A DNA stretch of 64,000 nucleotides from Ceratodon purpureus (taxonomy: Eukaryota; Streptophyta; Bryopsida; Pseudoditrichales; Ditrichaceae), in NCBI GenBank assembly GCA_014871385.1, contig CM026433.1, positions 5,901,585-5,965,584 of the forward strand, given 5' to 3'. Below the pieces are notes generated by a model. That model was not told the DNA's origin, searched no databases, and saw nothing but the letters and a program-made list of their open reading frames with translations. Below, piece after piece: positions 2,213-25,600 of this stretch; positions within the stretch are counted from its first letter, which is position 1, and every line of letters begins with the position of its first letter. Position numbers and translations under genes: made by a program.

Positions 2213-2244
2213 GGAGTTTCTAGTAGTGATAAGTGATATGTAGG

Positions 2245-2999: not shown

Positions 3000-3000
3000 A

Positions 3001-4383
3001 TAAGGTTGAAGTACCCATAACCACCAACTTAAGGGTTTTCGCCTATTTTGGAAAGGGATATTTTTAGGGGGCAATTTTCGTGCATTGGAAGATAGTTTTT
3101 CCATAGAATGTGCAACTTTGCACAATTTAAGTCCTTATTGATTAATAGATACAAATTTTCAAAGTGAAAAGTAGTTGAAATCTCATTAGCAACTTGGAAG
3201 CCATAGAGTTTACAAAAACCAAAACTTTTCATTCTGAAGTCCATTTTGTATTGATATGTTAAACCACCAGAACATGGCCTCCAAAGCAGTAATGAGTCAT
3301 CGAATAATTGCACAAGGTCAATAACAACAAGCATAACACTGTGCATTGAAAGCCATCAGCTGCAGTTTGTGTAAAAATGACCCCTTATTTAGTTGAAATT
3401 GTCCCATAAGGGTGTGAGCACGGTAAAGTGGACCAGTAAGTGCAATGTGTGATCACTAGAAAGTGAATATGAAGTGTGCTGTTTTTCAAAGCTCAAATCT
3501 GATTATGAGCATTTTGGTGTAGATTTTGAGCATTTTAGTCACTTTCTAAGGTGTCATAAGGTATCTTACATGCATCTTTGTTAAAAGAACATGTTCAATC
3601 GAAACTTGATTTGACCACTAGTTCTAAATCATGAAAATAAAATTTTCCAAAGTTTTGATTTCTTCATCTGGTGGCCTCTATTGTCTTTAGAGGATGTTTT
3701 TTTCAATTTGAAAAACAATGTTCGGTGAAGAAAAACTCACTAAAAGTACCGCGGAAGTGACCCTCTTGAAAACCATCCTTGCGACACTTTTGGAACCCTA
3801 AACCAATTAATGAGTATATGAATTGACTATTTTAGAACACCTCTTAAACATACAGAGGGCCCCCCTTCATCAAAAGTGATTTTAAGATAGTTTTTGATTC
3901 TTTTCTAGCCACTTTTTCAAATGGTCACATTCACTTTGCTTGGATTTAAAGCCCTCATACAATAACTTAAAAGTGTCTAATTTGCATGAAACTTTTCCAA
4001 GTTGTACAAAAACAAGTTGAGAATCTATATTAGCAAAACAAATTGAATTCAATAACATTTTTCCATCACTTTTGCACACTTTTAGCAAAAGGGCTGAAAC
4101 TCACAAATAGTTAAGCACTTTTTTGGTACACTTTACCATGCTTACACTCATAGCCTGTAATCAATGTGAGGGTGCTACATCAACAACCACCCGCAGCCTT
4201 CCACAATCCACTTTTGCACGACCTTAAACTGCTCTAGAATGAAGGTTATTTTCAGAATTACAAACAAAATTAGCGCTGCCAAGTACTACTTTGTGGTGGT
4301 GTCAGGTCCAACTAGTATTGGTTACAGGTCGACTCTACTGGGCGCTTATCTGGTCTGTGGTGGTAATGGGTACTTCAACCTTA
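3001..4383. mobile_element. Non-autonomous DNA transposon, CTAAGGT-end family (outer element)
   Basis: The left terminus TAAGGTTGAAGTACCCAT (3001) continues into ACCACCA. The right terminus at 4383 is the reverse complement with one mismatch in about 25 bp. The element spans about 1.38 kb. The short open frames inside (3029-3346 and 3882-4088, minus) resemble no transposase. Its middle holds a second inverted-repeat element, so much of the length is insertion. The flanking bases show no clear target-site duplication, which leaves the superfamily open. Confidence 0.65.
3411..4150. mobile_element. Nested inverted-repeat element inside 3001-4383
   Basis: The left end near 3411 reads GTGAGCACGGTAAAGTGGACC-like. 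The right end near 4150 gives GTAAGCATGGTAAAGTGTACC when reverse-complemented, so imperfect inverted repeats of about 23 bp flank some 690 bp. It has no protein-coding capacity that I recognise. It lies wholly within the outer element and so is probably the later insertion. Confidence 0.5.
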
Positions 4384-6849: not shown

Positions 6850-9200
6850 AGTACTTGAAAATCAGCTCACCCTGCAAGAACACAATTCCGAATTGTTTTC
6901 CCACATTGCCAGACCTTCACACAGAGGTCGAGACATCTTTTGGAATACCTTACGTTCTTTTTTCAACAATAAAGTTGGATTAATCATAATGTTGTCAAAT
7001 GTGAAGCTAAATTCACAAAAGAGAGCACAACATGGGCTATACCAGTCTACAGATGGGCTATACTTGTCGCAGACTAATAGCCGTAGTCCTGAAAGAAGTA
7101 TCAAATATGCAGTGAAAGTCAAGGCCAGATACTGCCAAATGGTCATCACCATATATATATGAATCAGGTATTATGGGTCAAGCGGCGTTGATCCTAATGT
7201 GAACGTTCCAGCTACAAGGTTTTAAGACTTCGAAAATCCTTTAAAAGTGATTTTAGTTCATATATAATTTTGTCATTAGTCTTTCTTCAAACCAGACCTA
7301 CAACCACACTTTTCCACCTCTTCAAAAACCAGTGTTTCCCCTCCTGTCACCTTCAGACACCAGACCAAAAAAAGTTACAATCACAATTCATCAAAACGTC
7401 TGGTTCAGATGGTGGTTGTCAAAAAGTTGACCGTAAATATATATATTCAACACCAATTATAGGATTCAATCCGCATAGTGACCAAACAATTTCATCCAGA
7501 CTATGCTTGTTGACCTGGAGGATATGTATCACCTATCCTTATGTTTTTAATGTACCACAGGCCACTTCAGTTAATCTTAAGTAAAAAATACTAAGGTGCG
7601 TGCTTCCACTTTGAGAAACACCTGAATCTTTGGAGCGATAATTATCATCATTGTCGAGGAATTTTTCCAGCTCCTTTCCAATAGGTTTGAAAAACACGTC
7701 TGACCTTTGCAATTGGCGTCTCGACCCCACTTGTTACAAAAAATCCCCAGACGATGTAAGGGGAAGATTGTAGTAAAGGACCAGCATACAGACTCACGTG
7801 TTCATATCGTTGAGTCAATGACCGCCGGTAACCTCTACCGACACACTGCTCAAATTTCCTCGGCAACCCATCTTCCGTGGCATCTGGCACCGGAAGATTT
7901 ATAGATCAGGGGACTAGAACAGCAAGATGATCTGCAACACCACTCTCTAGAGATTGCTGCAACACCACTCTCTCGAGATTGCTGCAACACCAACGTGACC
8001 CTTAATCAAAGAAAGCATGAAAGAACTCCAACACCGTGTCGACATCATACATAGCAAAGTTTAACCGGGCCCCCAGCAAACCATGTAACCATGCAATCGT
8101 GAAGAAAATTAGTGCCATGGCAGTGGAGAACTGGATATTTTGCGTGTCTCATTTGTCTTCGATTCGTCGCAATTGCAACAGCTCAGTTCCCTACACCCTC
8201 TTGCCTGGCAAAGTGCACCTTTCCCTTCGACAGTACAGTGAAACCACTTCGAAGAGCGTGTTAGTTTTATTTTTTTCTAATTTTTATCCAAATAGTCGGT
8301 AACTAAGTCAAGGTTGAATCTCGGAGGCAGGTAAAGTCACTGGTTGTATTTTAAAAAAGGTTTTTGGTGGTATGTCGAAGCAAACTTGGTAATTGTTGTT
8401 AAAAATGTGAATCCTCACTACTTGTCCGATCATTTGAGTTTTAACAACCCTTTTTTTCCATGACTAAGATCAAGCTAGAATTGGGTAATTTACTTCTAGA
8501 AGAATACTATCTCTTCTGGTGATTATTACTTCATTTTCATTCAAGGGTTGCGCTTGAATGTTTTCATCTGAATATAATGGTTGCATTTTTTGTGGCGTCA
8601 TTTAATTAATTCGAAGGAATAATGTATTCTATACTTATTAACAATATCAGTATTTGACCCGTGTTATTGAACAGTTAAATCTCATTGCATTGGTAGATTT
8701 TTTTGTCAAGGGAACTACCAGATCCGTGTTCACACCCGAATCTTAGCTAATAGAATCTTGCAACTAGAAGTCAGGAGGGAGTTTCTCACTAGCATCTGTG
8801 GCCTCACCAGACTTCTTCTGCGGCTAAGAACCTCCTTTACTTGAGAGAATAATATGTTTGTTAATCGGATTGATTCGAGAATCCGAGGTTTTGTCCGCAA
8901 GGACCTAGTCTTTCAAGTAAAGAATTTCGTCACACCATCAGAACTCCACGTTAGAGACTCAGTTCAATATTAAGTAATAAACGATGGACACAAAATATGA
9001 GTATGGGTCCACCTGAGCAACAGATTTAAGTGTCACTTGTCACGAAGGTTTGCATGGCTTATGCTCGGTATGAAGGGAATGCAAACCTACGGAATTTGCT
9101 CATTCCTGAGCAAGTTTGGTTTGGACTCTTACCCGAGCTTGACGACATAATTTACGGACTTCAACTTGTCTAATTTGGAAAATCAAAGCTATAGCTACAA
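6850..9200. other. Stretch without an identifiable gene
   Basis: Several open frames of 60-115 codons lie here on both strands (for example 6815-7162 plus and 7648-7890 minus). None resembles a known family, and no chain of exons with matching splice phases could be built. The tandem repeat at 7931-7998 is listed separately. Confidence 0.35.
7931..7998. repeat. Short tandem repeat, about 26-bp unit
   Basis: A unit containing CTGCAACACCACTCTCT then GAGATTG is repeated two and a half times. Function unknown. Confidence 0.7.
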
Positions 9201-9212
9201 TCTCATATCACG

Positions 9213-9220
9213 TATAAAAA
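9213..9220 (+). promoter_or_regulatory. Probable TATA box of the metallothionein-like gene
   Basis: TATAAAAA lies about 130 bp before the ATG at 9351. A transcription start some 30 bp downstream would give a leader of about 100 nt. The spacing fits plant class II promoters. Confidence 0.5.
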
Positions 9221-9350
9221 GAAGCAAGACGAGCATCATTTCCACACAATTGTAGTTTCTCTCTTGCTTTCACAAATATCGGTTACATTCAGCTAGCTTC
9301 TTTAATTCTTCATTGCAAGTAATTTCCTTGCTAAGAGCAGGCTTGGTCCG

Positions 9351-9617
9351 ATGGAAGGCCCTGCATTCTTTTCTGGCCTTGTGCAACACAGAAGCGGGCG
9401 TGAGCGTTGCCAAGACCATGACCAATGCTCCTGCTCAAATTGCAACATTGACACTCTCTTTGGTTCCCTGATGACGACAGAGGATTCTTCATTGAAGATG
9501 GTTGAGCCTGAAAAGTTTTCTCACTCTGAAGGGCCGAGTTTTGCATACTTTCCAGATCCTTCAAACGGATGTGGATGCGATAAATGGCATTGCGATAAAT
9601 GCCGCCCCCGATATTGA
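9351..9617 (+). CDS. Metallothionein-like small cysteine-rich protein
   Basis: This is a single-exon frame of 88 residues. Its eight cysteines fall in two clusters: Cys20, 26, 28 and 31 (core CSCSNC) and Cys74, 76, 81 and 84 (CGCDKWHCDKC). A spacer of about 42 residues without cysteine separates them. Two Cys-rich ends joined by a Cys-free linker is the layout of plant metallothioneins, which bind Zn, Cu or Cd through thiolates in the cytosol. Histidines near both clusters could add ligands. The leader has a TATA box and the gene stands alone. Against the call: the N-terminal 19 residues carry no cysteine, and eight cysteines is few for a plant metallothionein. A small zinc-binding protein is the alternative. 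Confidence 0.5.
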   Translation: MEGPAFFSGLVQHRSGRERCQDHDQCSCSNCNIDTLFGSLMTTEDSSLKMVEPEKFSHSEGPSFAYFPDPSNGCGCDKWHCDKCRPRY

Positions 9618-9649
9618 ATGATTCGCAGAAGTAAAAATCCAAGCTCAAC

Positions 9650-12000
9650 CGTTACGATCGACCCGAGAATTTGCATTTATTTGGGATGGGGTGTACCCCA
9701 TTCATTTGATGGACCAGAGATTTACACACGGCTCATTTTGTAATCAGCTACTTCTTTGACATATTTTAATTTTGATTAGAGAAGTGTAATTTGATATAGA
9801 TAAAAAGTGTTAGAATGTGGGGTCGCTTGTGTAGATCCTGCGTATAGAAATATGAGTGTGATTATACTTGTGAGTGTATTTATACAAATATAACTATATC
9901 TTGAACGCTAGTACTAGAAGCGATTCGACCTATTGATGCTGTAAGACTGGGCTTCTACTTAAATATTATGTCATCTAAATAAAGGAGTAAAGACCTCTTA
10001 GGACTAGGTGAGCTCCTAAGAGTCTAAAGATTGATGAGTTCAATGTATCTTGTGATACAGAACAATTTGATCTTCGGTTTGTATACTCCAATTTGAGATG
10101 AAAAAAAATTCCAGAAACATCGGGACTGAATTGATGCTCACTATTTTGTTTGATTAGTTTTTGCGCTCCCTCAGATCGATTTCATCCTAGACCGTCAAAG
10201 TCTCACTCGACCCGGGACCTTATTAATAGTCATTAGCTCGAAGAGGGAAGCCTTACCATTTGTTCAGTTTCTTCTACAGATGGACGTTTTGGGTCCAGCG
10301 TTTCCCTTCCAGAAGTTGATGCAGCTAGTGTTAAGAATATTCCAAAATAATCTGGACTGTGCTTCTAGCTTTAGGAACATCTTATGATATGAACAATCTT
10401 CCAAATTACATTCCGTAGTAGCGGCTATAGCTTCAAGATCGTTATTGAAACCGTCATGGTTGAGAAATTCAACCACAAGTGAAACGCCGCATTTTAGTAT
10501 ACCATATATTTTGGAACAGACTGCACGGCATACTATGTGTGTCGTTGGATCATTATCACAGGAAATACTGGCACTAGACTACACATGTCACCAAAGACGT
10601 TTAAACTAGAACTCATTTCAAACCAGCTCTTGGGAAGTGATGCTCATTGAAACCGTCACGACTCAATCATCCAGTGCTGTGGATGACGTATCCAATCCAA
10701 AATTTCTTTTGCGTGAGTGAATGAATAATTTTTTCGGCTACACACATTAACCTCTGAATCCAAAATTCTCTTACCGACAGTTATGGTCGAGCCCACATTG
10801 CCCGTCGGTGGATTGTCTGCAACCGCTCCTGCATCTCCTCTGGCGGTGCAAGCTTCTTTGGAAAATTCCTGGAGACTGAAAGTTAGTAGAACTGAAACTT
10901 CTGCTACAGTGACCGATCTTGATATCCTTTAGGGCTCTGTCGCTAACCGTAGCACAGACAAGGGCAAAGATTGATGAACGTACGAAAACGTCAATCGAGT
11001 TATACGGGGCTACCAGCCGGTTCTCCCCGTGCATTGACACCAAGTTAAGTCAGAACTGGCATTAAGTCATGATAGTAGTTGACTCATGTGAAGCCTGTGT
11101 CATTTCCAGCCAACTTGACCCCGAACTCTGCCAATGCCTTCAATCTAGAAGAAGGGCTTGCTTATGATTTAACAGACTTCACTCACAACTACAGGAATGC
11201 TGTCACCTGATCTACACTGCAACCTGACAATTCCTGCCAAACCTCAGGCAAATATTGTTCCTGATCATGGAATGCAACTTATGCGGCCTGCATTTCCACA
11301 CTAATGTGCCTGCCCATCATTTATGAAGCCCAGATGTACTCAAAATCACAGCCAAACCCGGAGTAATTCGGAGTAACTCGGAGTATTTCGGAGTACTTCA
11401 TCAGCTAATTATAACACCACTATGTTATCACATGCCAGCGGGATTTGAGTAATTCTCATGTCGACTCCCTGATTGCAGCCAGAAGATTATGCTGGTTCTT
11501 CTAAATAGCATAAATTTAATAGCAAATTTGCTACCATCTTAGGGCTGGAGGATATCTCTGAAATTTGAAGTAACTTACATATGTGCAGCAATTGAATGAT
11601 GAAGAGCTGAGTGCACCAGTTCAAGTCATGTATAATTATGCAACAGTTGATTGAAAGATGATCATAAACGTCGAAGCATGCACATGAATGGAAGGTCGAG
11701 AGATAAAATCATGGTGCTTCAATTTGTGGGAACTCACAGAAAGCTGGAATAACGGTGTAGAAGTTTAGAATCATGTGTATTCATGTCCATTGAAGATCAC
11801 ATAAAAAGGTCTACAAGGTCCATATATTCTCAGCTCACTGGATAATGGGAATCTCAACAGTCCAGTCTCTATGAATTTTGATAGCTCATCCGATGAATAA
11901 CGTAAGGATCAATATTTGAAGCACAGTAATCAGGTGATGACACCCAAGAATTAGAATATTGGGGATGAGCACAACTTGATCATACTCTCCAGGAAGCAAA
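9650..12000. other. Stretch without an identifiable gene
   Basis: Minus-strand frames at 10660-11040 show exon-like open stretches with possible GT-AG borders (one contains ARGDAGAVADNPPTG), but no family was recognised. A minus-strand frame at 10264-10476 is also unassigned. These could be further captured gene pieces or chance frames. Confidence 0.35.
11359..11399. repeat. Tandem 10-bp repeat (CGGAGTAATT type)
   Basis: Four consecutive copies of CGGAGTAATT or near variants. Simple tandem repeat with no known role. Confidence 0.75.
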
Positions 12001-12062
12001 TTATTGTGAAGGGTTACTAGAATTCAAAGTCCTAGACTAGTTTCGTTAACGATGAATCAGCA

Positions 12063-13268
12063 TTACATGGCCAACAACTGCTTCACATTCATGGGGCTGA
12101 TAACGTCAGGGCCACCGTTGAGGAAAACTTGGAAGCTCATCCTGTTCACTGTCTCGGTGGGGTGGAATGCATCCCAGAAAACAGACTTTGTTCTACCAGC
12201 GCACAGATTGCCGATTGTGCGACAAGCACCGTTAATGCCGTTGAACTTCCCCACACCACAGCACGCCGTAGCTACAGGTTCAGTGAATCCTGCAAGGAGG
12301 AACCAAAAAAATTATTCAAACAAAAAACAGAATACTGATAAATAGAATGATCAGTTTTCATGTTGAAGGAGCATTAAAATGAAGATAAAAAAACATCTGA
12401 GAGAATTTGGGTTGTTGGGGATTTGAATCAGGGCTATGGATGCAGGACTTTACCATATTTCAAGGGGTTGTCAATGATCGACTTGACGACACCGAAAGCG
12501 TTAGCGTAGAGAATCACAGAGCCTGGAAGCTCAGTTGAACGCTCTCCAACATGGGCTTCAAGGCATTGTTGAAGTTGATGGCGTAGTCGTTCACCTCTTG
12601 GACGCACTCCCCATTCTTGCTTCTTGTGGAGAGCACAGAAGGTGCGCAACCGATGGGACCCATGTTGGAAATAATGAATTTTCTCATCCCCAAACCATAT
12701 GCTGTCTGCAAGCAGATTGTCATTTCTACAGCTTAGATTCATTGTCTCATAAGCGACGATCGAATTCTCGACATGGTACTTAAAAACAGTGAGCAGGTGA
12801 TTGAATGTGATTGAATATTGTACCTTAAGCTGCCCTCTGAAGAGAGTGATTAGTCGGTCTAGGTATTGAGGCAGTGTGTACATGTTTTTGGTGTTGGTTG
12901 TGAGAGCCATGTAGTTGTTGATGTAATCGTTACCTCCAACTGTGAAAGAGTAGATGCCGTTGTGAATCAGTTTTTCCATCCCTTGTTGTCCAATCATCAG
13001 AGCAATCTGCTGCTTCGTTTTCGTAAAGTGATCGAATTGCTGTGACATTGTAACACGGCCGATCTGAACACGAATCCACAGCGTTAGCCATCACAGCCAG
13101 GAAATATAACTCACATTGTCATATTCTTCTACGGTCGTCTTTTGGAGCATATATAGTAATCAGGAAAAAAGAATTTCACAGGTTGATCCTTACGAAGACT
13201 TGGCCGGATTCTTCCTGAATGCCTGCTCCAGCAGAAGCATAGTTCACCCCATGTAGAAGGTTACCTTC
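12063..13268 (-). pseudogene. GDSL esterase/lipase, 5'-truncated and frameshifted
   Basis: Plant GDSL (SGNH) esterase/lipases are secreted serine hydrolases. Four exon-like blocks are seen: about 13268-13195 (HGVNYASAGAG), 13063-12824 (FTVGGNDYINNY, block III), 12705-12454 (GMRKFIISNMGPIGC and the later SVILYANAFG) and 12289-12063. The last carries DAFHPTE, with the catalytic Asp and His, then a stop. Splice borders match intron positions that keep frame, except that the third exon is one base short. A 1-nt loss near 12535 shifts the frame between MLESVQ and ELPGSVILYANAFG. Block I, with the GDS nucleophile serine and the signal peptide, is absent: sequence before 13268 belongs to an ARF fragment. 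With no nucleophile and a shifted frame it cannot encode an active enzyme. Confidence 0.85.
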
Positions 13269-14090
13269 TGTAGCTGGTTACCTCCATGTTTAGGCTCTCC
13301 TGGCTCATTTGAGCCACTTCCGCGGTTGACAGGATTTTGATGGAGCGGACGCAATTTAGAAACTCACTGCATGATTCGGATTAAATATGCGCAGGTTAGT
13401 CAACAGAGGTAAAGTTGCACTTGCATCGAAATTTGTCAAAGGAAAAAGACATGGATATGATGAATGACCACTCAAGTAATACTCATGTGATTTAAACGAA
13501 GCCTAAATGAAGGTCATTAAATCCAGTTTCTGGATGTGAGGACTCACTCCCAGGGATGGTCACCGAGAAGAAGTGCGTCGTTCTCGTTGTCAACAAACAC
13601 AATTTGCCAGCCCGAGTGATCCTCCATCAGACAATCCAGTTGGAACATGTGTGCAAGCTCCTTTCGGAGATCTGAGAAGTTGCGTACATCCAGTGATCTT
13701 CCCACTGATCCAAGTTTGTGAACCTGTTCATCATCGTCCAAGTAGTACGAGTTAAATTTTGTCGAAGGGTCAAAAAGGCCCCCAAGGAATTTCAGAGCTA
13801 AAGCAAACAGATTATGAGAAGAGGTCGACACAAGATTATGGGTGTTGGCACATCGACTGCAAGAAGAAAGTCGATAACATATAAGGACCCAATACCCAAG
13901 TGGGTAATAAAAAGCAGATCATTGGATTCATGTATACAATAGTGACCAAGACATTCAAGTAAGTTGAAGAAGATGCAGGCAATGTACTAACCTTGGTGAA
14001 GGTTCGCACCGCAGGCGCAGTTTGCACGGATTGAATTTTTGTTGAATTTTTTTCAAGCTTAGATTTTGAGCAGAGAGTAACCGTTTGAGC
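13262..14090 (-). pseudogene. Auxin response factor C-terminal fragment (PB1 domain)
   Basis: ARFs are nuclear transcription factors; their C-terminal PB1 domain mediates oligomerisation with ARF and Aux/IAA proteins. Three exons are visible. One ends at about 13992 with APAVRTFTK and a GTTAGT donor. The second, 13723-13548, carries [13 protein letters not shown] (basic face) and [22 protein letters not shown] (acidic face). The third, 13366 to about 13262, carries EFLNCVRSIKILSTAEV. Phases join correctly to give HPW-DEF. The DNA-binding and middle domains are absent from the window. After MSQESLNME the sequence runs into the GDSL fragment within a few codons and meets a TAA. Upstream, homology stops where the duplicated F-box region begins. 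It is therefore a detached gene piece. Confidence 0.85.
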
Positions 14091-14165
14091 AGGACAGAAA
14101 CGGGAGCGCCTCTGTCTATGAGATACTCTGCATATGAGGTACTCTCATGAAATCATGGTATTTAT

Positions 14166-14832
14166 GAAGCCCTGCAGCGCCAAGCTTTCCCGCCCCTTTC
14201 TGCCGCTCGGATCTCGCATCTGATGATCAGGTTGTGATTTTTAGTTCATGCTGTAGATCATGTGCAAGCAGCCGACGAAAATGATGTTACGTTTTGTTGA
14301 TATATAACTCAACTGGCCATCTTCATGTAGTTGCACAATTTTATTTGTAAGGTTGAATCTGCTTCATGTTTGCTATGACATCTGCGACCGACTAGCTCAT
14401 AAGGTGAACGCTTGAGTTTTTAAGTGACGCTTGGGTTTGCTGAGTAGAATCCTGTAGTGTGCTGCAGATGCGCCCTCGATGGTCTGTGAATTCTCTTGTT
14501 GAAAAACTGCTGTATAATCAAGATTATAACCGGCATTCAGTTGATTGGCATTCCCTTGCACACACACTCCAATCTCGAATTCTAAAAGGAAGGTGAAGGT
14601 GATTGATCAAGGAGGCGAAGAGGTGGAGACGGCAGGGAGGCGAGGGGTCGGAGGACTCGAGGCGGCAGTCAAGTTAGTACTCCACCCCATACTTCCGCTT
14701 TAAATTGAGTTCCGCTTGGGTCTACGGTTTATTAGTTTCAGTTGGCATGTACAGACGATGGATTTGAGGCCTGCCTTGTGGAGTCAGCTCCCGTTTGAGA
14801 TCTTGGAGCAAGTTCTATCTCTGAGTACTTGA
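14166..14832 (+). pseudogene. Truncated copy of the F-box gene 5' region
   Basis: The sequence from GCAGCGCCAAGCTTTCCCG (about 14170) to about 14821 matches 21310-21957 closely, covering the promoter, leader and start of the F-box gene. The copied reading frame starts at 14758 with MDLRPALWSQLPFEILEQV, nearly identical to the intact gene, then meets a TGA a few codons after homology ends. Only the first half of the F-box motif is present, so a Skp1-binding product is unlikely. The duplication breakpoint lies beside the ARF fragment. Confidence 0.85.
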
Positions 14833-15800
14833 AGTGCAGATATCAAAGCAATATTTGGAGCCACGGTCGCAGTCTTTGCAGTCTAATCGCTTGGCATGGT
14901 TCGAGACGTTGTTGTTGAGGTTGTTCCGCAGTCTAACCTGGAGACTAAGAGGTTAGAACTAAATGACTGTTTCGGCAAATTGAATATTTCTTCTTCTTTA
15001 GCATACAATTCCCGATATGAGTGCTTGATGAATACAATGCTTGTTAATAAAATCTAACTTATAAATATTGAGGTGGTCCTCGGTTGATACTCCTCTGCAA
15101 ATTCAGTTGAATGCCATTGTCCAAAGTATTGACGATTCTTATGACGTAAGCGAGAACATGAAGCTTTTCTTGCAGTTGTTGACGTTCAGGGCAGGGAATC
15201 ATTCAGTAAGCTGTTGCCAAAGTGTCCTGTCATGGACTGGATGTGGGATTGAGAACGTTGTTGCTGCTTCGATATCATCATGATGTTTTAATTTTTTAAA
15301 TTTTTTTTTAAATTTTTTTTTTTTTTTTTTTTTGGGGCAAATGAACGAATTCCATTGAAAGAATTTTAAGTACAACCCTCATAAGACATGATGATATGGT
15401 TCCTGAGTCTAAGGTTCACAACTGAGAATCAACCAAGATTTTCTTGTTTTAATTGAATCAATCGTCGTGCGATAGCCTAGACAGAAAATATCTTCAGTCT
15501 GAGACTAGGCGGTTTTCTGACGATAATATTCTTAATGTATTCTAACTAGTGGGACCCGTGCCGTTGAGCACGTTGTCATTAGATTAATATGAAGGACTTT
15601 TAGAAACTTTAAATAATTTTATTAAAAAAAAATTAAAATTAAATATGAAGTATATTATATCCATTCCCTTGTGATGGATTTTGAATTCACGTCAATAGTA
15701 CTGGTTTATTTTACACGGGTGTCTTTGTTGAATCCTACGAACATATACTGCATGGTGTATATACCCTAGTCATCAACATGAATATTGATTTATTTAATGA
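14833..15800. other. No recognisable gene; poly-T tract
   Basis: A 71-codon plus-strand frame (15068-15283) is unassigned. A T-rich run with a 20+ T tract lies at about 15290-15335 and could mark an old retroposition or simple slippage. Nothing else is supported. Confidence 0.4.
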
Positions 15801-15834
15801 AATAAAATATACATTGCAAGCCTCAAAGTTGGCT

Positions 15835-17439
15835 TTATCTTATTATTCGATAACATTCTGACGGATCAATCCTCAATTTGTCTATTGACTTTTGAAATGT
15901 CTCTATTCTTTTTAGAAATCTATCGTAGCGGTCATCTGCAGTACTACCTATTAGTTGTAGGCCGTTATAGTACGTATCATAATCTCTATGTAAAATTTCA
16001 AGTTTTGCCGTAAAAGAAGCTAGAATCCAAAGAGCTAACTTTGATGTAGCATACACATCAGTGGCTAAACTGAATTTAGCCACTTCTGATCCAGTAAGGC
16101 TCATTAAAGAAGGATCCACCCAAGGCCGTCTAATCTTATCATCGTCCAAATCTTTTTGTGTTTGATATAGATAATTAGATTGGTGAGGAAAGTCTATCCT
16201 ACAAGCAAGTCCCCAATCACAAACACCTATGTACATATTGTTCCCTTCTCTATGAAACAAAATGTTATCAGGAGACAAATCACAATGTATGCTACCATTT
16301 TTATACAAAAAGAGCATACCATGTAAAAAGTGCCAAGACAATCAAACACCTATGTACATATTGTTCCCTTCTCTATGAAACAAAATGTTATCAGGAGACA
16401 AATCACAATGTATGCTACCATTTTTATACAAAAAGAGCATACCATGTAAAAAGTGCCAAGACAATCTGAGTCGTAGTCCTTGAAACAGCTCCACATTCTC
16501 CTTGTCCACTCCTGGCAGTATAGATAATTTTTTATTACACTTTTGCACCATAGTTCTCAAAGTTCCGGCATTCCACCATCGCATATATCCATGCGCTTTA
16601 GTAGGATGGATAGCAAACAACTTAATAAATAAAGGATGAAGATGGGGGCAACTCATTGCTTCCATATTCATTGTTGTAATAGCGTTTCTTTCAACCGAAG
16701 TTGTAATAAATGCTTTACAAGCATATTCTTCATGCCTTGGTATAAAATCAACACCCACAATGTCACATTTATAAATGATACCAGAGCTACCTTTAGCAAA
16801 CGGCTTCTTTCCATCCCTAAAGATAACTTCAGCTTTGGGTGGAAGAAAATGCAACAAAGATCCATTTAACATATCTTTGTTTATACCATGTACTAATTTT
16901 CGAGGTTCAACTACTAATTTACCTAACTCACTATCAAACCAAGTTACTTTATCCAGTAAATCATTATAACCGTCATCAACGGGACTTAGAACTTGAGTAA
17001 CCCAATTTTTTAAATGCCCAGTTGCACTTCTAACCAGCTCGGTAAGCAGACTCTGAAATCTCAATTCAGACAACTTGTCTTTTTCCTGTTTGAATTTATC
17101 ATCAAAAATTTCCGATAGCAATATTTTTTCTAGATAGGTTTTATAATCTTCAACCCCTTGGACATTACTACTCAAAAACAGACGATGTAAACGTCCCTCA
17201 GGACACCCTTTAAACCAATTTACTATACTCTTACGAATTTGTGCAAGACACTCCTTAGACAAAAACTTATCATCTTTTTCTCTATGCCTAGCACCACGGC
17301 TTCCAGTACGTCTTTTTCTTTTTTTAGACTTCTGCACATCGACATTGCTAGGTCCAACATCAATTTGAATGCTATCAATAAACCCACTCGTACCGCACGA
17401 CTCTATTGTTGTCATTGTCAATAAAAACAAACCTCCCAC
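15835..17439 (-). pseudogene. Intronless protein kinase-like gene, interrupted by a tandem duplication
   Basis: Two same-frame pieces, 17439-16342 and 16341-15835, form one kinase-like protein. The N-terminal part is basic (KKRKRR) and unassigned. A kinase domain follows: glycine-rich loop GSSGIIYKC, lysine strand YACKAF, catalytic loop HCDLSPDN (usual form HRDLKPEN) and CDWGLA in place of DFG. A 123-bp segment (41 codons, SWHFLHG to MYIGV, including the catalytic loop) occurs twice in tandem at 16221-16343 and 16344-16466. The junction creates a single in-frame TGA. Removing one copy would leave about 490 residues, consistent with an ancestral intact kinase. The atypical HCD and DWG motifs are compatible with either an active divergent kinase or a pseudokinase. 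Confidence 0.75.
16221..16466. repeat. Tandem direct duplication, 2 x 123 bp
   Basis: Two almost identical adjacent copies beginning AAACACCTATGTACATATTG. The length is an exact multiple of three, so the frame is kept, but the join produces a stop. The near-identity implies a recent event. Confidence 0.95.
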
Positions 17440-17676
17440 AATTTACCACTAACTTACAAAATAATAATCAAAATATAATAATAAACAAAATATAATAATC
17501 AAAACAAAATATAAAAAAACGATCTAAGGCTCACCACCCAACAGTAGATAATAAACCACACAATAAGTGATTTTACTTTCTAACTATAGTTCCTTTTCCA
17601 AAAGATGTACAATCTACTTTTAATATTTGTACTTTTTATTTCAATTTACTTTTAATTTTTATGGGACCTTAAGGAA

Positions 17677-17710
17677 GCGCCTACGCTCCCAACATTGGGA
17701 ACGTAGACGC
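17677..17710. other. Perfectly placed short hairpin
   Basis: GCGCCTACGCTCCCAA and TTGGGAACGTAGACGC pair as 16-bp arms with two mismatches around a 2-nt loop. It could be a transposon end structure. No Helitron-type CTRR end follows within about 15 nt. Confidence 0.5.
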
Positions 17711-17759
17711 TCAATAAGATTGCAATGACGATATCACGTTCTCACGAAAGACCTCTAGT

Positions 17760-17850
17760 ACTGCTTCCTGGATGAAATCAGCGTAGAGCCTCATGTCGCG
17801 GACCCAGAGGTCGCGGGTTCAAACCCTAGTGTGATGGGCTCTCCTGTTAC
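17760..17850 (+). repeat. tRNA-like segment, possible SINE head
   Basis: GGTTCAAACCC (17816-17826) is a good RNA polymerase III B box. About 40 nt before it, GATGAAATCAGCGTAGAGC resembles a decayed A box. The acceptor stem does not close, so it is not a functional tRNA gene. A tRNA-derived SINE or tRNA relic is likely. Confidence 0.4.
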
Positions 17851-18599
17851 CGTGTTTGAAATATCACCTCCCCTAGTGCCTGGCAGCTTCATCTATCACT
17901 TTTGTTTTAAAGTAGTTAGGAAAACGCATTTCAGGTTCTTCAGGTCTCTTCATGTTTTCTCAAATTGGACATTATTGTGATTGACCAGCTCATTTATTAA
18001 TTGACTTGGTTTTTTGTTAGGAAAACTGAGGTTGTGTGTTTGGTATGAAATAACAGACAAGGCAGGGGTATAGCACGATGTCATTAGATTCTTGTTGGAT
18101 CTGTTATTGCTTATTTGAATTCTTCTTACAGTTAATCATCTAGGGGGCCTACCGCCAGGGTTTGGTTGGAATCTCACTGTCAAGTACTGGGCCATCTGTA
18201 GTGATTTTAGATCTGTGTGGGTTGGGAGTCTGCCCTGGTAGTGTGATACGTATTTACTTTCTTTGTTTTCAGGAATATTAGTTAACAGTTTCGAATTCTA
18301 TGTTTTTTGCTGTTATGTAAGGTTATTAAAGTACTTTACAAACCCTTACTTTCAGTAACAATCAAATCTAAAAAAACCAACACTTCCAATAGCATACACA
18401 CGTATCTCCCTGCCAACTGAAAATGCAGGTTGAGAAAAAAATGATTCCTGCTTGCAAAAGCTGCACGGCCGTAATCACACTAACGCTAACACATAACCAC
18501 TCTGATGATCATTAGGGTGCAAATCACATGAGCTCACATGCAACAACCATCTGAGTAGACACAAAAACGAGCATGCAGTAAAACTACCATCGGCAGCAC

Positions 18600-19030
18600 A
18601 CCTAAAAGAAAGTTAACATGCACTTTAGAACATTCTGCCCCGCATAATTTGCAGACAGGCTTCACATTCAAGCAGACGCGGTCATGTGGTCGCGGCAAGC
18701 ACCAACTCAGGGTGCACGTTGGGCTTCTAGTTCCCGTCCATCTCGTTCGGCAAACCAAGATGATATACAAAAACGCTGCAAGTCCACGCTAAACCTTCCA
18801 CACAAGCTTCTTAATAAATCTAGAGTTTCCTTCCTTGTACAGGCACCAACTCCCTCAGCACATTGCAGATTAACACAACTAACCTTCTCATTCCACCAAT
18901 CCGTCGAGACGATGTCACGGCAGGCACCGTCAACGCCCCGAAGCCTAATCTGGCAAGCCAAATCGTAAGTCACTTTCACCAACGCAATGACGCTCCCAAC
19001 TTGCAGTACAGCGGACTTTAACGAGCACAT
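18600..19030 (-). other. Unidentified exon-like segments
   Basis: Minus-strand open frames with plausible splice borders are present, including a segment ending in an AAG|GTTAGT donor whose frame reads ACRDIVSTDWWNEK. I do not recognise the family, and two frames are open. The position just 3' of the SF3a60 exons suggests another piece of the fragment mosaic. Confidence 0.3.
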
Positions 19031-19110
19031 TGAATCCGTATGACCATGTCAATGCTGCAATAAAAGTGTGGCACAAAACAAAGAATAGCCAGACTTAAGT
19101 CTTCGTTAAC

Positions 19111-19923
19111 CTGACCCCACGTGAGATTTTATGCAACTGTGAAAACTCCTCTAAAAATGCTGAGTACTTTATTGGCTGTCCAAAGTTGGAGTTCGGGAAC
19201 TGATTGTACAGCTCATGCAAATCCAAGTATCTTCCATACGCTTCCTGAACCTGCAGTAAATACCCTTAGATATCTATAAGTCACAAAATCTAGCAGTTAC
19301 AGTGGGGGATTGAATCAATGCCCGTGTAAACTGCATCTTATCTGCCACAGCAAAGGCTCAAGCCTCTGTCTGCAAACAAGAAACATTGATGGTAATGTAA
19401 TGTGCTCATCCAAAACAGATGGCTTCAAAATGAACACACCGATCTTGAAGCCACGACGACTCTCTTATATTGAATTGAACAAGCTTCTTAATAAATGTAA
19501 TACGTAAAACTACTCAATCACACGGCTTCGTTCAGAGAATCACTGCAACCCGACTTCTGGCATCTTATTCAATAATAAAAAAAATCGAAGATGGGATAAG
19601 ACGTGCAGCAGGGAGTGGCCAGGAAAAAACCTCTCCACTGAAGTCGATGTAAGGCTCTTTCTTGAAATATTCTTCAGGGTCGTCTGCTGTGACTCCCTCC
19701 CGAGCATTAGGATGGCGTCTATGGTACTCCCTAACCTGCGAAAGATGACCAGTCACATTTCTGAATAAACATGAACAGAGGAGGTTCTGCAGACAGTCGC
19801 TACACCAGAAAGCCCCAGATTCTCAAGCACTCGCCTCGAAACAACAATGGAAACCAAGCCCGCAATCATGAACAGAACTTCACATACTTCTTTGAATCGC
19901 TCGTAAAATGACGTGAAGTAATT
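19111..19923 (-). pseudogene. SF3a60 (SF3A3) splicing factor, internal exons only
   Basis: SF3a60 is a subunit of the U2 snRNP SF3a complex, needed for branch-site recognition. Three exons match its middle region in order: 19923-19888 (SFYERFKE), 19735-19631 (VREYHRRHPNAREG to EPYIDFSGE) and 19244-19111 (EAYGRYLDLHELYNQF to LHKISRGVR). Splice borders keep frame and the family order is right. The N-terminus and the C-terminal part with the C2H2 matrin-type zinc finger are not found nearby. The donor after FSGE (GTTTTT) is weak. Phosphoglycerate mutase exons lie immediately upstream on the same strand. This is a detached gene piece rather than a working gene. Confidence 0.85.
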
Positions 19924-20173
19924 CTAGTGACGAAAACACCAAAGGAAAAACCTCACGCTCTCAACGACAACAACAACATCCCAAACCCGCACGCATCCTA
20001 AACCGACTGTAACCAGCCCTACATTAACCCCTAAATCAAAACAAAAACAACAACACAACCTAAACCCCAACCTAAATCAAATTATGTCCTGTTGAATCAA
20101 CACGAATTAGAGAAGACGAAGAGATTCCGATATTGCATGTCAGTGAGAACGCTCGAACAAACAAAGTAATACC

Positions 20174-20250
20174 TGCGGCGGAGTGTGCCCAAGGAATTCT
20201 TTCAGAAGCCTTAAATCTGGAAGCGGGTGCTCGGAGGGAGATCAAACACA
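20174..20250 (-). other. Unidentified exon-like piece between dPGM and SF3a60 fragments
   Basis: A short open stretch ends DLRLLKEFLGHTPPQ before a GTATTA donor. It matches neither neighbouring family. It may be a further captured exon; function unknown. Confidence 0.3.
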
Positions 20251-20284
20251 ATTTGATTCAATCCCTGCAATAAGAGCCGTTTGC

Positions 20285-20971
20285 TTGGCGCGAACGAGCC
20301 GGCTCGTAAAAACGATATCAAAGTCAATCTCACTCACAGCTCTCCCGCCTGCCAACGCCTCATTCACACCCTTCTCCGTCAGCGGAATGTCGACATCCCT
20401 GCAAACGAATCCACCACTTCAGAAACTCCAAAATCCAATTCACTCTACCTCGAACATCATGATCCCTTCAAAAAAACTTCAGGGTTTAATGTACAATATC
20501 CAAGTTAGGGTTTCACTGATCTCAAATAGTAACACACTTCTACACCACGAAATCTCAACACAGACCTCCCATAAACCGCACCTTGATGCGTACTCATCGC
20601 TTAACCTAACGCACACAAATGGCAGTTGCACAAAAAAAAAAACAGAAACCATCACATCACATCAATAACAGCACATACCCTGTGAACAGCTTCAAATCAT
20701 TCCACATGCTTTCACCTGGCTCCATCACCAATCCACCCCAAAACCAGGTCAAACTCCCCAATTACACAACTTCCAACATCCGCCCTTCCAAATTCCAAAA
20801 TATCAGTCCTCACTCAGCAAAACTGCAATTCAGTAACCAAAAAAGCAAATCACTCCTTTCAAGATGACAACTCAATTCAGGTCACCATTTGAGAATTCGA
20901 AACCTACCATGGCGCATCAGAACGAGCTGAGATTGCACGCTGGAGGGAATGGACGTCGAGACGGCCGGCAT
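20285..20971 (-). pseudogene. Cofactor-dependent phosphoglycerate mutase, first three exons only
   Basis: dPGM interconverts 3- and 2-phosphoglycerate through a phosphohistidine. The exons are 20971-20908 (MPAVSTSIPSSVQSQLVLMRH), 20715-20679 (GESMWNDLKLFTG) and 20398 to about 20285 (DVDIPLTEKGVNEALAGG to VRAKQTALIA). Phases are compatible across both introns, and the RHGE motif with the catalytic histidine is intact. Homology ends after TALIA, and the frame then meets a stop. The rest of the enzyme, including the second catalytic histidine, is missing and unrelated exon-like sequence follows. No transit peptide is evident before LVLMRHG. A truncated product could be made from this ATG but would not be a mutase. 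Confidence 0.85.
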
Positions 20972-21309
20972 GGCGACGCGTGAACCATTTGGCCCTCGCC
21001 TAGGAGGCATGTCTGCATGTCTGAGATGGGGAACCGCAGTTTGCATGGGGTACCTGGTCCTGCATGTCGACGTGTCTTAGCATGGTTGTCTCCTCGACGG
21101 ATTCCGGCGTGGAACTGTCGAGTGAGACAAACCATGCTCAATTGTATAATAGATGGTACTATTCTTAATGTATGTCTTCACGTAAATTGTACTGAACGGG
21201 CGTGGTGTAAAGTTTAGGTTTGGGGTCACCTTCCTTCACGTAAACCCTAATCCTTTTTGTTTAGTGGTCACAGAGGAAGGTGATTTTACGAGGGTATACC
21301 TTGTGGCAG

Positions 21310-21880
21310 AAGCCTTGCAGCGCCAAGCTTTCCCGAGCTCTGCCGCCCCCTTCTGCCGCTCGGATCTCGCATCTGACGATCAGGTTGTGATTCTCACTTC
21401 ATTCTGTAGATCATGTGCAAGCAGCCGGCGAGAATGATGTTAAGTTTTGTTGATATCTCAACTGTCCATCTTCATGTAGTTACACAATTTTATTTGTAAG
21501 GTCCTGCTTTATGTTTGCAATACTGACATCTGCGACCGACTAGCTCTTAAGGTGAAACGCTTGAGTTTTATCAGTGACGCTTGGGTTTGCTGAGTAGAAT
21601 CCTGTAATGTGCTCAGAGGCGCCCTCGATAGTCTGTGAATTCTCTTGTTGAAAAACTGCTGTATAATCAAGATTATAACCGGCATTCAGTTCATTGGCAT
21701 TCACTTGCACACACACTCCAATCTCGAATTCTAAAAGGAAGGTGAAGGTGGTTCCAGAAGGCCAAGAGGTGGAGACGGCTGGGATGCGAGGGTACAGAAG
21801 ATTGGAGGTGGCACTCCGCCCCAAACTTCCGCTTCAAATTGAGTTCCGTTTGAGTCAAGGGCTTATTAGTTTCACTTGGC
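21310..21880 (+). promoter_or_regulatory. Promoter and leader region of the F-box gene
   Basis: This is the non-coding part of the segment duplicated at 14166-14757. Conservation of both copies, including the region before the ATG, indicates recent duplication rather than proven function. No clear TATA box was assigned. Confidence 0.45.
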
Positions 21881-23245
21881 ATGGACAGGATGATGGATTT
21901 GAGGCCTACCTTGTGGAGTCAGCTCCCGTTCGAGATTTTGGAGCAAGTTCTATCCTTCGTGCCCGTGCCAAATTTGTGTAGGTTTCGGAGTGTAAGTAAG
22001 AGATGGAACCAGCTCATCGGCAGCCGTGAATTTGGTGGCCAATGTGCTCGGAAGGTGAAGCAACATGCGTCAAGGCAGGCGTCGGACTTCATCGTTCTCC
22101 AGTATACTCAATATGCTTCCAAAAACGGACGGTATCTAAAGTGGAAGGAATTTTGCTTTCTCAACCTCAGATCAAGGCGATGGTCCAGACACTCAAATTA
22201 TGCAGCTGACGGAATATGCAGCTCAATTGATTCTCCACATGTGGATATGGATGGAGGCCTGGTGGTAGGACCCAACTATGAACAAAGCTGGCGTACCTGG
22301 CCTGCCTCTACTCTCGTTGTGCGTAACCTGACTGCGCCAAACACTCGGAAAGAACTGCCATCTGCACCAAACCATTGGACCTTTTCTTCATTATGTTGCC
22401 ATTTTTGTCTGCTCAATCTCGGTGTAAAGGATAATACCCAGACCTTCAAGGTTTTTCTCATCAACGGAGAATTTGAGAAGTTGGAAGATCCTGATATTAC
22501 ATTAGTAGAACGCAGGAGGATTTTAGATGATCCAATGCTCCGTGTTTACAATTCGGCTACCAGTGAGTGGAAGGGCCTGACCAACCCCTCTTGCATATTC
22601 GAGAATGTACGCGGCCAAAGTAATTTTCAACTTATACCTACCAGTATGGTCATGCTTCAAGATTGCCCTCACATTTTGTTCACATCAGGCTTTGATGGCT
22701 ATGATGTGTTCAATGCGCCGCGGTTTGAGCCTCAGCTTTGGAGGTACAACCTTCATGAAGATTTGTGGGAGAACATGCATTGTAGACCTAGCCATTATGG
22801 CAAGCTCATCGTGAGTGTCAATCGCTTGTTTCTGGTGGGTTGGTCATTGGTTGGAGCGAGAAAACAATTTAATGTGACCGAAATCGAAGTCCCTGACAAG
22901 ACTTGCGTCTCATTGTTTACATGGACGGAGGCACAAGTTGCGGACGTTTTTGATATACAAGGGGACTTATCAAATTTGTGGAGATACAATCGTGCGCATG
23001 CCTTTGATAATTGCCTCATTAACATTCATGTCACTGGCTTTGACAACTCCCTCATGTTCACGTCTTTTGTTACTCCAGGGAAACTAATATCTTTCGACTT
23101 CGTGAACAATAAATTTGATCGCAAGTGGCCGCCTCTGAATCCTTTGAAAGACCTTCCGGACGAGATTGAAGATATAAGGTTTGCATATGGTGATTTTTGT
23201 GCATGGAAGCAAATGAATCTCCTTCTGCCTGGAACACCGTTCTGA
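21881..23245 (+). CDS. F-box protein, intact
   Basis: This is a single-exon gene of 454 residues. An N-terminal F-box (about residues 9-50; LPFEILEQVLSFVPVPNLCR, then FRSVSKRWNQLI) is expected to bind Skp1 in an SCF ubiquitin ligase. The remaining 400 residues form a probable beta-propeller-like substrate-binding region with recurrent aromatic-Gly strands, but canonical kelch repeats are not obvious. The substrate is unknown. Methionines at residues 1, 4 and 5 are close together; the second reading MDLRP is the start shared with the truncated copy at 14758, so translation may begin there. Downstream lie a 19-20-bp direct duplication spanning the stop and five copies of a 22-bp repeat in the likely 3' UTR. 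Confidence 0.85.
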   Translation: MDRMMDLRPTLWSQLPFEILEQVLSFVPVPNLCRFRSVSKRWNQLIGSREFGGQCARKVKQHASRQASDFIVLQYTQYASKNGRYLKWKEFCFLNLRSRRWSRHSNYAADGICSSIDSPHVDMDGGLVVGPNYEQSWRTWPASTLVVRNLTAPNTRKELPSAPNHWTFSSLCCHFCLLNLGVKDNTQTFKVFLINGEFEKLEDPDITLVERRRILDDPMLRVYNSATSEWKGLTNPSCIFENVRGQSNFQLIPTSMVMLQDCPHILFTSGFDGYDVFNAPRFEPQLWRYNLHEDLWENMHCRPSHYGKLIVSVNRLFLVGWSLVGARKQFNVTEIEVPDKTCVSLFTWTEAQVADVFDIQGDLSNLWRYNRAHAFDNCLINIHVTGFDNSLMFTSFVTPGKLISFDFVNNKFDRKWPPLNPLKDLPDEIEDIRFAYGDFCAWKQMNLLLPGTPF

Positions 23246-23330
23246 TAGCCAAGTCACCGTTCTGATAGCCAAGTCACAGCATTGATGTACACATTGATTG
23301 AGTGACTATGGTGCACCGATCAAGTATAGG

Positions 23331-23437
23331 CTGCTCCGTTAAGTATTTAAGACTGCTCCGTTAAGTATTTAAGACTGCTCCGTTAAGTATTTAAGACTGC
23401 TCCGTTAAGTATTTAAGACTGCTCCGTTAAGTATTCA
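23331..23437. repeat. 22-bp tandem repeat, five copies
   Basis: The unit starts CTGCTCCGTTAAGTATTTAA and is repeated four times exactly plus a fifth partial or variant copy. It lies about 85 bp after the F-box stop codon, probably in the 3' UTR. Near-identity of the copies suggests recent expansion. Confidence 0.95.
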
Positions 23438-25600
23438 AGTCAATATCTTGAAACTCATGAAGGCTAAATCAGACTTCGTGGCTCTCTCCGTTCTCATTCT
23501 ATTCTGATGTTCTAAAACTATGTTTGCATTCAATATTGTCATTGTGAAATTGGCTTGGCATTTTATTTTGTTGTTGAATTGCATTGTTTTTTTTTTCACA
23601 ACAACACTCAGCTTGAATGATACATTGCTGTTCGTACATGATCACACAAATGTTTATATTGCCGGAAATGTATTACAGAGCTCTAATCTCGCAACTTGAT
23701 ACCGTTTTTTGGAGGATCATGCTTATCAAGTACACATGATTTTTCCAACTATTGCTTGCAGTCGTTGACTGAACTTGTGAATATTTATTTGTTGTTGGAA
23801 ATTTCAGTGAGCAGATTATGAATACAAGATTTTTATTCCATGAATACAAGATTTTTATTCCATAGTCTACTAGGAAGGATGTCAAATTCATTTCGCTGTG
23901 ATATTTTGCATTTTGTACAGGCCTACATCCACACTTGCGTCACTGTCTAAGACCACATTGTAAACAATTTCTTGGATGCTTCAAACCTTGTATAACAAAT
24001 CACTTTCAGCAATTCGCTGCATTCCTTTTTCTTTTTTTCTTTTTTCAAATGAGAACGAGAGAGTTTTGAGTTTGTTTTGATTGATTGACTCAAAGATATT
24101 GCTTGTATTGAAACATGTGTTTTTATGGAGTGGTGAAACATTGTGGCATTTGAGTTTGTAAATTAATCATAAACATGAGTGAGGTAATGAGTACAATGAG
24201 ATTTTGTGTGACAGAAGGGATGCTTAATGGGTGGGTGATGGGATGACTTCATGACGAATTGTTGTATTATATCAAAGTTGATTTTAGAATTATTGTCCTA
24301 TTTGGTGTAAAAAGAGTAATATTTATTATTCATAGAAATGGTTATGACATTGAAAGTAGATTATTGATTATATTAGTTAGTCTTGGCTTTTGGAAATACT
24401 TTGACTATGTCTTTTTTATAAAAGATATTTGATTTAAACCATTCATATAGTGTTTATGTTTTTTCATCGAATTTAAACAAACTCATAAATCCAAAATTAT
24501 AATATTTTAAATCAAATGGTATAGAATTTCATTTCACACATATTGATGTGTCATACATAGTGTTTCAATATTACATTTTAATTCTAAATATTATTTGTTG
24601 ACATTTTGGATGTGAAATGTTTTCACTAAAAGAAATTTAACACAAACAACTTTCAACTATAAAATTCTTCAATGTTAACCTTGGCATACATCATTATTCA
24701 AAGCAATCCATGATTTTATTGATATTGTCAAACTTTGACTAGCATTATCACATGTCTTCGCAATTTGAAAGAAAACCAAAACTTGACCCATGTAGTTAAA
24801 TGCTTACCAAACATTCATAACATATTGAACTGAATTGAGATTATTACTTCAAAATTTAAGTCTAAACTCGACTCCAACTCTATATATTTTGTTGATATCT
24901 TATAGTAGACAAATGAGAAATTTTATCTACATAATCTATTTTTAGTTTTTAAAAACCAAACAAAATGAATATTAGTTCTGTTTAATTCTTAGGATAAAAA
25001 TACTATTACAATGTTATATTTTTTATAGTTTTATAGCATAGTATGAAAATTTACACACATACAACATAAAACACTACAATGCAAGAAAAGATATATAATT
25101 GATAAAACTATTAAGGCAAAAATTTCAAAAGAATGTTGAATCATCAAATATAGCATGCAATGGCAACCGCATCTTGAGTTGAAAGAACAGACAAAAAGTG
25201 CGTATTTCCGACATATCATGTACTCATTGTCATCAAAACATCTCTAAACTATTAAGGCTACCATTGTCAGAAATACATAAATTTGGATTTTATTTTATTT
25301 TTTTAAATTTTGGAATGAATGATACCTTTATTACCACTGCAAGCGCAACAGAGACAAAAACACATAATCTTGGGTTCAAAAGCTAAAAATTGATTGATAT
25401 CATATACTTACTAAACCGGTTATCAGATATTGTACACATATTGTGTATGCAACAAGGCAATACCCATACACGTTGGTTTCACAATCAAGTTGGAAATAGG
25501 TGTGTTCACCTTATTCTTGTATAAAACGAGAAGGGACAAAGTTTGGTGGCTCTTTTTGATCCAAACAGATAGCAAAGACAAAAAGGAGAAAGAAAAAGTC
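23438..25600. other. AT-rich intergenic stretch
   Basis: No gene is supported. A 22-bp direct duplication (TGAATACAAGATTTTTATTC type) sits at about 23819-23864. Otherwise it is AT-rich with short chance frames. Confidence 0.5.

Follow-up and report, generated by a model that had tools for sequence, protein, structure and literature searches.

An ARF–GDSL chimera adjoins a gene-capturing Helitron of a kinase-carrying family in a moss genome

Two unrelated mosaics of gene sequence very probably adjoin in the stretch of moss (Ceratodon purpureus) DNA analysed here, a window of 64,000 nucleotides: a complete Helitron at 15546-21153 and a chimera of auxin response factor (ARF) and GDSL lipase sequence at 10963-14033 (Table 1). 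The preliminary description, drawn from the sequence alone, had recorded minus-strand pieces of unrelated genes with their introns, and Pfam matches together with longer genes elsewhere in the genome bear this out. Longer parent or parent-like genes exist for the GDSL lipase, the ARF PB1 domain, SF3a60 and phosphoglycerate mutase (PGM), and comparison with these matched the fragments to C2, C10, C5 and C11 respectively. The proposal that one element made the mosaic stands for SF3a60, PGM, the kinase and the segments without a Pfam match, but not for GDSL and ARF, which lie outside the element's ends. An Rfam search of 10500-22400 at gathering thresholds returned no match.

Table 1. Positions of the features in the window, with their closest counterparts.
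Feature	Position	Strand	Remarks
53-bp filler	10963..11015		piece of abundant repeat >750 bp
GDSL lipase fragment, exon 1 lost	11010..13275	-	94.1% to C2 gene L011; PF00657
ARF PB1-domain fragment, joined to GDSL	13276..14033	-	86% to L033 (C10) from 13288
Partial duplicate of gene start at 21309-21954	14166..14820	+	80-97% per block
Complete non-autonomous Helitron	15546..21153	-	5608 bp; same two ends paired on C1, C7, C8, C6, others
Helitron 3' end: CGTGC-loop-GCACG hairpin, then GGTCCCACTAG, host T	15546..15572	-	CTAG followed by T in 7/7 loci
Protein kinase gene	15838..17442	-	one stop, at 123-bp duplication junction
Perfect 123-bp tandem duplication inside kinase	16220..16465		also in C55; single copy in other aligned kinase loci
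Segment	17912..18327	-	89% to C5:10105068-10105468
Segment without Pfam match (two frames tested)	18325..19021	-	parts common to relatives on C8, C6, C1, C2
SF3a60 fragment with introns	19021..19925	-	95.4% to longer gene L020 (C5)
Segment without Pfam match (one frame tested)	19926..20270	-	common to relatives on C4, C2
Phosphoglycerate mutase-like gene, 5' part	20266..20980	-	97.5% to L034 (C11); PF00300
Helitron 5' terminal segment	20980..21153	-	98.3% C8, 99.3% C1 (152 bp), 94.3% C2
Helitron 5' end TCTATTATACAATTGAGCATGG, host A before	21132..21153	-	identical in C8 (L009), C1 (L029)

The Helitron is delimited by two termini, at 21153 (5') and 15546 (3'), where the preliminary description had found none; the search it had proposed, for a 5' TC and a 3' hairpin plus CTRR around the mosaic, gives this pair. 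At the 5' end a host A is followed directly by TCTATTATAC, exact in 3/3 loci; 29 of 38 other scored genome matches start precisely at this A–TC boundary and the other nine begin 1-8 bases before the predicted start. The 3' hairpin (-6.6 kcal/mol, z = -2.87; 4/200 shuffles equally good) is followed by CTAG and then T in all seven distinct loci, the C55 twin excluded. Non-self 3' matches stop exactly at the predicted end in 22/38 cases and run 1-20 bases beyond it in 16/38; overrun of the predicted ends is perhaps due to AT-rich flanks. At least 18 ordered 5'-3' end pairs lie within 15 kb of each other (the window element, its C55 twin and 16 others with spacings of 0.8-14 kb, two of these being near-identical C6 copies), whereas 1000 trials of random placement gave 0.06 on average and at most 1; the tally omits two short secondary matches of one terminus search and one of the other. 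The best 40 of 355 and the best 40 of 160 candidates were scored in these searches, and copy numbers are thus lower bounds. A search of the window gave no further copy of these ends, and none of the listed Rep or helicase matches falls within its coordinates, so the window copy is not autonomous. Pack-TYPE and Pack-MULE transposons are bounded by terminal inverted repeats. Neither these nor the Mutator termini suggested earlier were borne out: there is no inverted pair of ≥20 bases at the element's ends in 9000-24000, and a Pack-MULE or Pack-TYPE origin was rejected on this ground.

Splice sites had been described as in phase, and this holds for SF3a60 and PGM within the Helitron: in the exon stretches read, signals and frames look intact by eye and no indel against the parents breaks the frame. 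It holds less fully for the GDSL fragment outside, where one exon has lost 1 bp at 12537 relative to C2. By eye the SF3a60 fragment covers two exons and a portion of a third; it matches PF16837 (E=1.1e-13), with PF12108 under its cut-off, and a PF12108 search for the parent gave no match, the parent being recognised by eye in L020. At the inner junction of the PGM piece there is a 5-bp microhomology, TGCAA. Relatives on C8, C4 and C2, only the first of which has both ends paired, have SF3a60 sequence but lack PGM, the pattern expected of stepwise capture.

Related copies at loci on C4, C3 and C2 encode Rep and a PIF1-like helicase (RepHel; PF14214, PF05970, PF21530) in interrupted frames and share the same 3' end. 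The C4 locus unites the parts: its 5' end is diverged (TG for TC, 2 mismatches), PF14214, a helicase and an intact kinase frame of 494 aa are all present, and its 3' end is the same but for 2 mismatches. In related RepHel elements, diverged old loci included, the kinase sits between the helicase and the 3' end. Rep or helicase lies within 10 kb of 15 of the 49 kinase loci, whereas 500 random trials gave a mean of 0.32 and a maximum of 3; the kinase is downstream in 15/15 of these and on the same strand in 13/15. The count of 49 omits second fragments of one locus and kinase matches of 26-36% identity, and fragments of one Rep are merged; the best 86 of 1105 candidates in the kinase search were scored, which makes copy numbers lower bounds. 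The kinase has long belonged to this Helitron family and is no piece of a host kinase picked up here; recent capture at the locus was rejected, given the kinase in related RepHel elements and old diverged loci alike. Gene capture by Helitrons is well known. Our literature search found no earlier description of a kinase behind a Helitron replication gene, and as far as that search shows the kinase as a long-term Helitron passenger is new.

The window copy of the gene is broken, as first described, by the perfect 123-bp duplication with a stop at its junction. An intact copy on C1 matches PF00069 (E=1.6e-9), and by eye motifs of the catalytic type are kept (K, HCDLSPDN, DWG). Searched against the PDB, the kinase matched kinase domains only distantly (best E=5e-6), and no relative was confirmed in viral contigs, where close relatives only were sought. 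Another dispersed repeat of the same genome contains a further kinase, distantly related to that of the Helitron (33% identity over 209 residues).

Could the kinase be a working accessory protein that aids replication or evasion of silencing, rather than a passenger? We consider this doubtful. Its linkage to RepHel in both old and young copies and its catalytic motifs speak for such a role, as does the depletion of stop gains on internal branches (6/381 changes vs 41/687, p=5e-4), although parsimony may miss internal stops. Against it, dN/dS does not differ between internal and terminal branches (0.76 vs 0.82, p=0.70), in an alignment anchored on the C1 copy from which insertions relative to C1, the window's 123-bp duplication among them, were dropped. 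Amino-acid constraint on the kinase is weak, and the strong purifying selection that we expected was not found. By the same method constraint is stronger on RepHel, with p<0.05 in 5/6 pairs compared with 2/15 kinase pairs plus one at 0.05, though the shorter kinase gives less power. One young RepHel clade, including a C8 copy with a 1247-aa open frame, has no kinase, meaning no listed kinase match within 10 kb, with downstream DNA read in two such loci (L052, L053); supports in the tree are low and L092 is poorly aligned. All four kinase-bearing RepHel copies read (C3, C4, C2, C6) are interrupted by stops or a deletion, which further lowers the odds of an accessory role.

The second mosaic joins GDSL to the PB1/AUX_IAA end of an auxin response factor gene, where the PF02309 match is weak (E=0.032); an ADP-ribosylation factor (PF00025) was rejected as the meaning of ARF here. 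At only 86% identity the C10 gene may be a paralogue of the ARF parent. To judge by its junctions, where the 53-bp filler, 7-bp repeats and pieces resembling C12, C2 and C10 meet, the block is apparently a patchwork repair product. Five copies of a dispersed repeat carry the chimera piece 12447-13657, and the ARF–GDSL junction is also present in copies of that repeat. The window copy's 330-bp deletion is found in four of the five and not in L028, which fits more than one order of chimera formation, capture and deletion. By eye, the Helitron and the chimera, two kinds of mosaic, resemble a single one.

The five repeat copies, one of which (L013) has a DDE_1 transposase frame with a similar frame in L016, raise the alternative that another, now unrecognisable transposon captured the ARF–GDSL block. 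We regard this as unlikely: on either side the window copy runs on past the repeat junction, with sequence that continues the parent genes, and hence does not derive from those repeats, and around the block there are neither inverted repeats of ≥20 bases nor ends of this Helitron family. Far less probable is a larger Helitron that took everything from GDSL to PGM (12063-20971). All pieces do lie on one strand, and Helitron captures are often collinear, but GDSL and ARF are left of the 3' terminus at 15546, the family's 3' matches stop at that terminus (22/38 exactly, the rest within 20 bases), and in other copies GDSL and ARF are flanked by a different repeat. Equally hard to credit is mis-assembly or a set of separate local duplications, for which one can cite the locally duplicated start of the neighbouring gene at 21309-21954, which we take to be F-box-like, and the existence of C55. 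The parents lie on other chromosomes, and the joins of the mosaic are seen again in other elements and in C55. That contig has the locus a second time, element included (99.0% across 6020 aligned columns; 100% in stretches outside the element), and so makes assembly error unlikely; it may be a redundant contig and thus not a fully independent witness. The proposed look for the same mosaic at other loci brought up C55 and joins in other elements; a piece of the ARF–GDSL part recurs in a different repeat.

For the Helitron and the separate chimera we propose the following history. The window element descends from a RepHel family with the kinase between helicase and 3' end, RepHel having been replaced stepwise by pieces from elsewhere in the genome, among them presumably 18325-19021 and 19926-20270. 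Segments without a Pfam match would have come first, then SF3a60 from C5 and last PGM from C11, beside the 5' end. Judging from the family, RepHel supplied by relatives would move the element in trans, by rolling-circle replication into a site between A and T. The chimera would have arisen from C10-like and C2-like genes with the 53-bp filler, break repair by template switching being the likeliest mechanism, and another dispersed repeat also has a piece of it.

Published accounts offer several parallels. Gene-capturing maize Helitrons (Dong et al., 2011; PMC3288121) are described with TC/CTAG ends, a hairpin, insertion between A and T, and fragments of several genes gathered step by step in one element, all as in the window; host and sequences differ, and here non-autonomous copies keep a kinase beside the 3' end. 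HELPO1 Helitrons of Pleurotus (PMC4289320) retain capA and capB downstream of RepHel, ahead of the 3' end, from copy to copy, as with the kinase here, but those genes have no known domain, whereas ours encodes a protein kinase and occurs in a plant, in copies both old and young. Plant Helitrons with RPA-like genes (Mothra; PMC4683698) likewise have an accessory gene beside the transposition genes; the RPA-like proteins bind single-stranded DNA, which fits replication, while the kinase has no obvious replication role. Pack-TYPE and Pack-MULE elements reportedly mobilise gene fragments (PMC8903248), as here, but our element has no inverted repeats of ≥20 bases at its ends.

Gene capture by a moss Helitron is thus documented with ends, parents and donor junctions. 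More speculatively, and improbably on present evidence, the lineage may keep the kinase as a true accessory gene, with frames open in source copies, perhaps acting on the replication or silencing machinery; the second kinase in another dispersed repeat suggests that kinases of the subfamily may be of repeated benefit to this plant's mobile DNA. Through the linkage of kinase and RepHel it becomes possible to test whether an enzyme from outside replication can become a rolling-circle transposon's lasting partner or is mere cargo.

A DNA search of the genome (362 Mb, including one 110.5-Mb contig) with positions 11800-21900 of the window (itself at 5.90-5.97 Mb of contig C13) as query found close relatives elsewhere for most pieces of the apparent mosaic, with sharp breakpoints, and the mosaic could therefore be dissected. 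The preliminary description had proposed that a single element took up same-strand pieces of unrelated genes. Parental or parent-like genes were located, and Helitron termini were found enclosing the SF3a60, phosphoglycerate mutase (PGM) and kinase pieces, but the GDSL lipase and auxin response factor (ARF) pieces sit to the left of the element.

Features of the locus in window coordinates, with their matches on other contigs (C) of the genome
Feature	Position	Strand	Match or remark
GDSL fragment	11010-13275	minus	GDSL gene on C2
ARF fragment	13288-14033	minus	PB1 end of auxin response factor on C10
Helitron 3' boundary	15546	minus	...CGTGCTCAACGGCACGGGTCCCACTAG, then T; hairpin then CTAG; common to aligned relatives
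Helitron 5' boundary	21153	minus	A, then TCTATTATACAATTGAGCATGG; common to aligned relatives
5' terminal segment	21153-20980	minus	
PGM-like gene start	20980-20266	minus	C11 gene, 97.5%
Segment	20270-19926	minus	also in C4, C2
SF3a60 fragment	19925-19021	minus	C5 gene, 95.4%
Segment	19021-18325	minus	parts also in C8, C6, C1, C2
Segment	18327-17912	minus	C5:10105068, 89%
Segment	17911-17662	minus	no source traced
Kinase and 3' end	from 17661	minus	

Both boundaries were obtained by aligning relatives to the window, and their features are Helitron hallmarks according to PMC4683698 and PMC3288121. With at most two mismatches, the 3' end occurs at seven distinct loci (the window's twin on contig C55 left out), T following in every one; the exact 5' end occurs at three (window, C8, C1), each time with A in front. 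Duplication of a single event probably accounts for both C6 loci. Further genome searches took each end together with some 30 flanking bases as query, and the best 40 of 355 5' matches and the best 40 of 160 3' matches were used. Leaving out the window and its twin, 29 of 38 5' matches start exactly at the TC after A and the remaining nine 1-8 bases earlier. Of the 38 3' matches, 22 stop at CTAG or at the T after it, and 16 continue 1-20 bases beyond. At least 18 ordered 5'-3' pairs lie on one strand at most 15 kb apart (random placement: mean 0.06, maximum 1, 1000 trials); the Helitron is thus complete and one among many. At L052 (C8:6854600-6858000, about 2710-2790) a Helitron 3' CTAG directly abuts a diverged Helitron 5' end (TCTATATTAC...), the kind of head-to-tail junction expected from a rolling-circle concatemer. 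Contig C55 (45 kb), a redundant or alternative contig, duplicates window 7000-21413. Beyond the Helitron it has stretches of 100% identity, inside the Helitron there are small indels, and a 1.7-kb insertion lies at window position 8062.

The fragments had been described as having splice sites still in phase, and the cargo exon stretches that were read hold no frame-breaking indel relative to their parents. SF3a60-like exons of the C5 gene, read by eye, flank the captured piece on either side. Since relatives on C8, C4 and C2 have SF3a60 sequence but lack PGM, and 5 bp of microhomology mark the join of PGM, PGM looks like the most recent addition. Gene capture by Helitrons is textbook knowledge; experimental support for a read-through mechanism is presented in PMC4778049.

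Outside the Helitron, the ARF-GDSL junction recurs at other loci: five copies of another dispersed repeat (L013, L016, L017, L018, L028) carry 12447-13657. Derivation of the window copy from these repeats is ruled out because it extends further into both parents. A 330-bp stretch between 7-bp repeats is retained in L028 and deleted in the window and the other four copies; in L013 a DDE_1/HTH_psq transposase frame (Pfam) follows the ARF-GDSL piece, with a similar frame in L016. The C2 GDSL gene retains GDSL exon 1, and at the block's left edge 53 bp from an abundant repeat form the bridge to a C12-like segment. Judged from sequence, this patchwork and its microhomology are consistent with assembly by template-switching break repair. 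A duplicated gene start, which we take to be F-box-like, is present either side of the Helitron (14166-14820 and 21309-21954, 80-97% identical per block), with related pieces elsewhere on C13.

The window kinase is disrupted by a 123-bp tandem duplication, also present in C55. The C1 copy has a 496-aa frame (PF00069, E=1.6e-9). On C4, Rep (PF14214) and helicase are followed by an intact 494-aa kinase frame that extends to the same Helitron 3' terminus. This Rep-helicase-kinase order recurs on C3, C2 and others. Among 49 kinase loci, drawn from the best 86 of 1105 genomic matches, Rep or helicase is no more than 10 kb away at 15 (random placement: mean 0.32, maximum 3, 500 trials). At every one of these 15 the kinase is downstream, and at 13 its strand is the same. 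L021 and L024 (C6:105.34 and 105.53 Mb) are near-identical Helitron copies on opposite strands, in which a deletion has created an in-frame fusion of Rep with part of the kinase. A second kinase family occurs in a dispersed repeat (L036, C5:3479700-3484200; ORF 1690-3174, minus), 33% identical to the Helitron kinase over 209 aa; there are at least 32 further long matches (91-97% identity), of which many lie on C6.

Whether the Helitron needs its kinase can be weighed from these copies. All four kinase-bearing Rep-helicase (RepHel) copies read (C3, C4, C2, C6) are interrupted, and a kinase-less RepHel on C8 has a 1247-aa open frame, both of which count against a requirement. In two kinase-less RepHel elements, on C8 and C6, helicase leads directly to the 3' end; their identity to the C3 carrier is about 96% over the compared helicase end. 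Among 14 kinase copies, internal branches hold 93 synonymous and 282 nonsynonymous changes (dN/dS 0.76) and terminal branches 153 and 493 (0.82), with no difference between them (p=0.70), while stop gains are rarer on internal branches (6/381 versus 41/687, p=5e-4). The kinase frame thus seems to have been kept open, yet under weak constraint at the protein level. In the RepHel control (four copies), five of six pairs depart from neutrality.

Among the matches listed for open-licence PMC literature (titles and abstract openings), we found no description of a Helitron-borne kinase gene; kinase fragments as ordinary Helitron cargo may well already be published. In Pleurotus, additional genes following RepHel have been described (PMC4289320). 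A midpoint-rooted tree was built from 27 Rep domains, of which 11 have a kinase match within 10 kb and 16 do not. In it the three most divergent copies all lack the kinase, a group of nine decayed copies comprises six carriers and three without, and ten young kinase-less copies group together in a single clade (split support 0.76) that sits among the carriers. This distribution weakly suggests that the kinase was resident early in the RepHel lineage and lost later.
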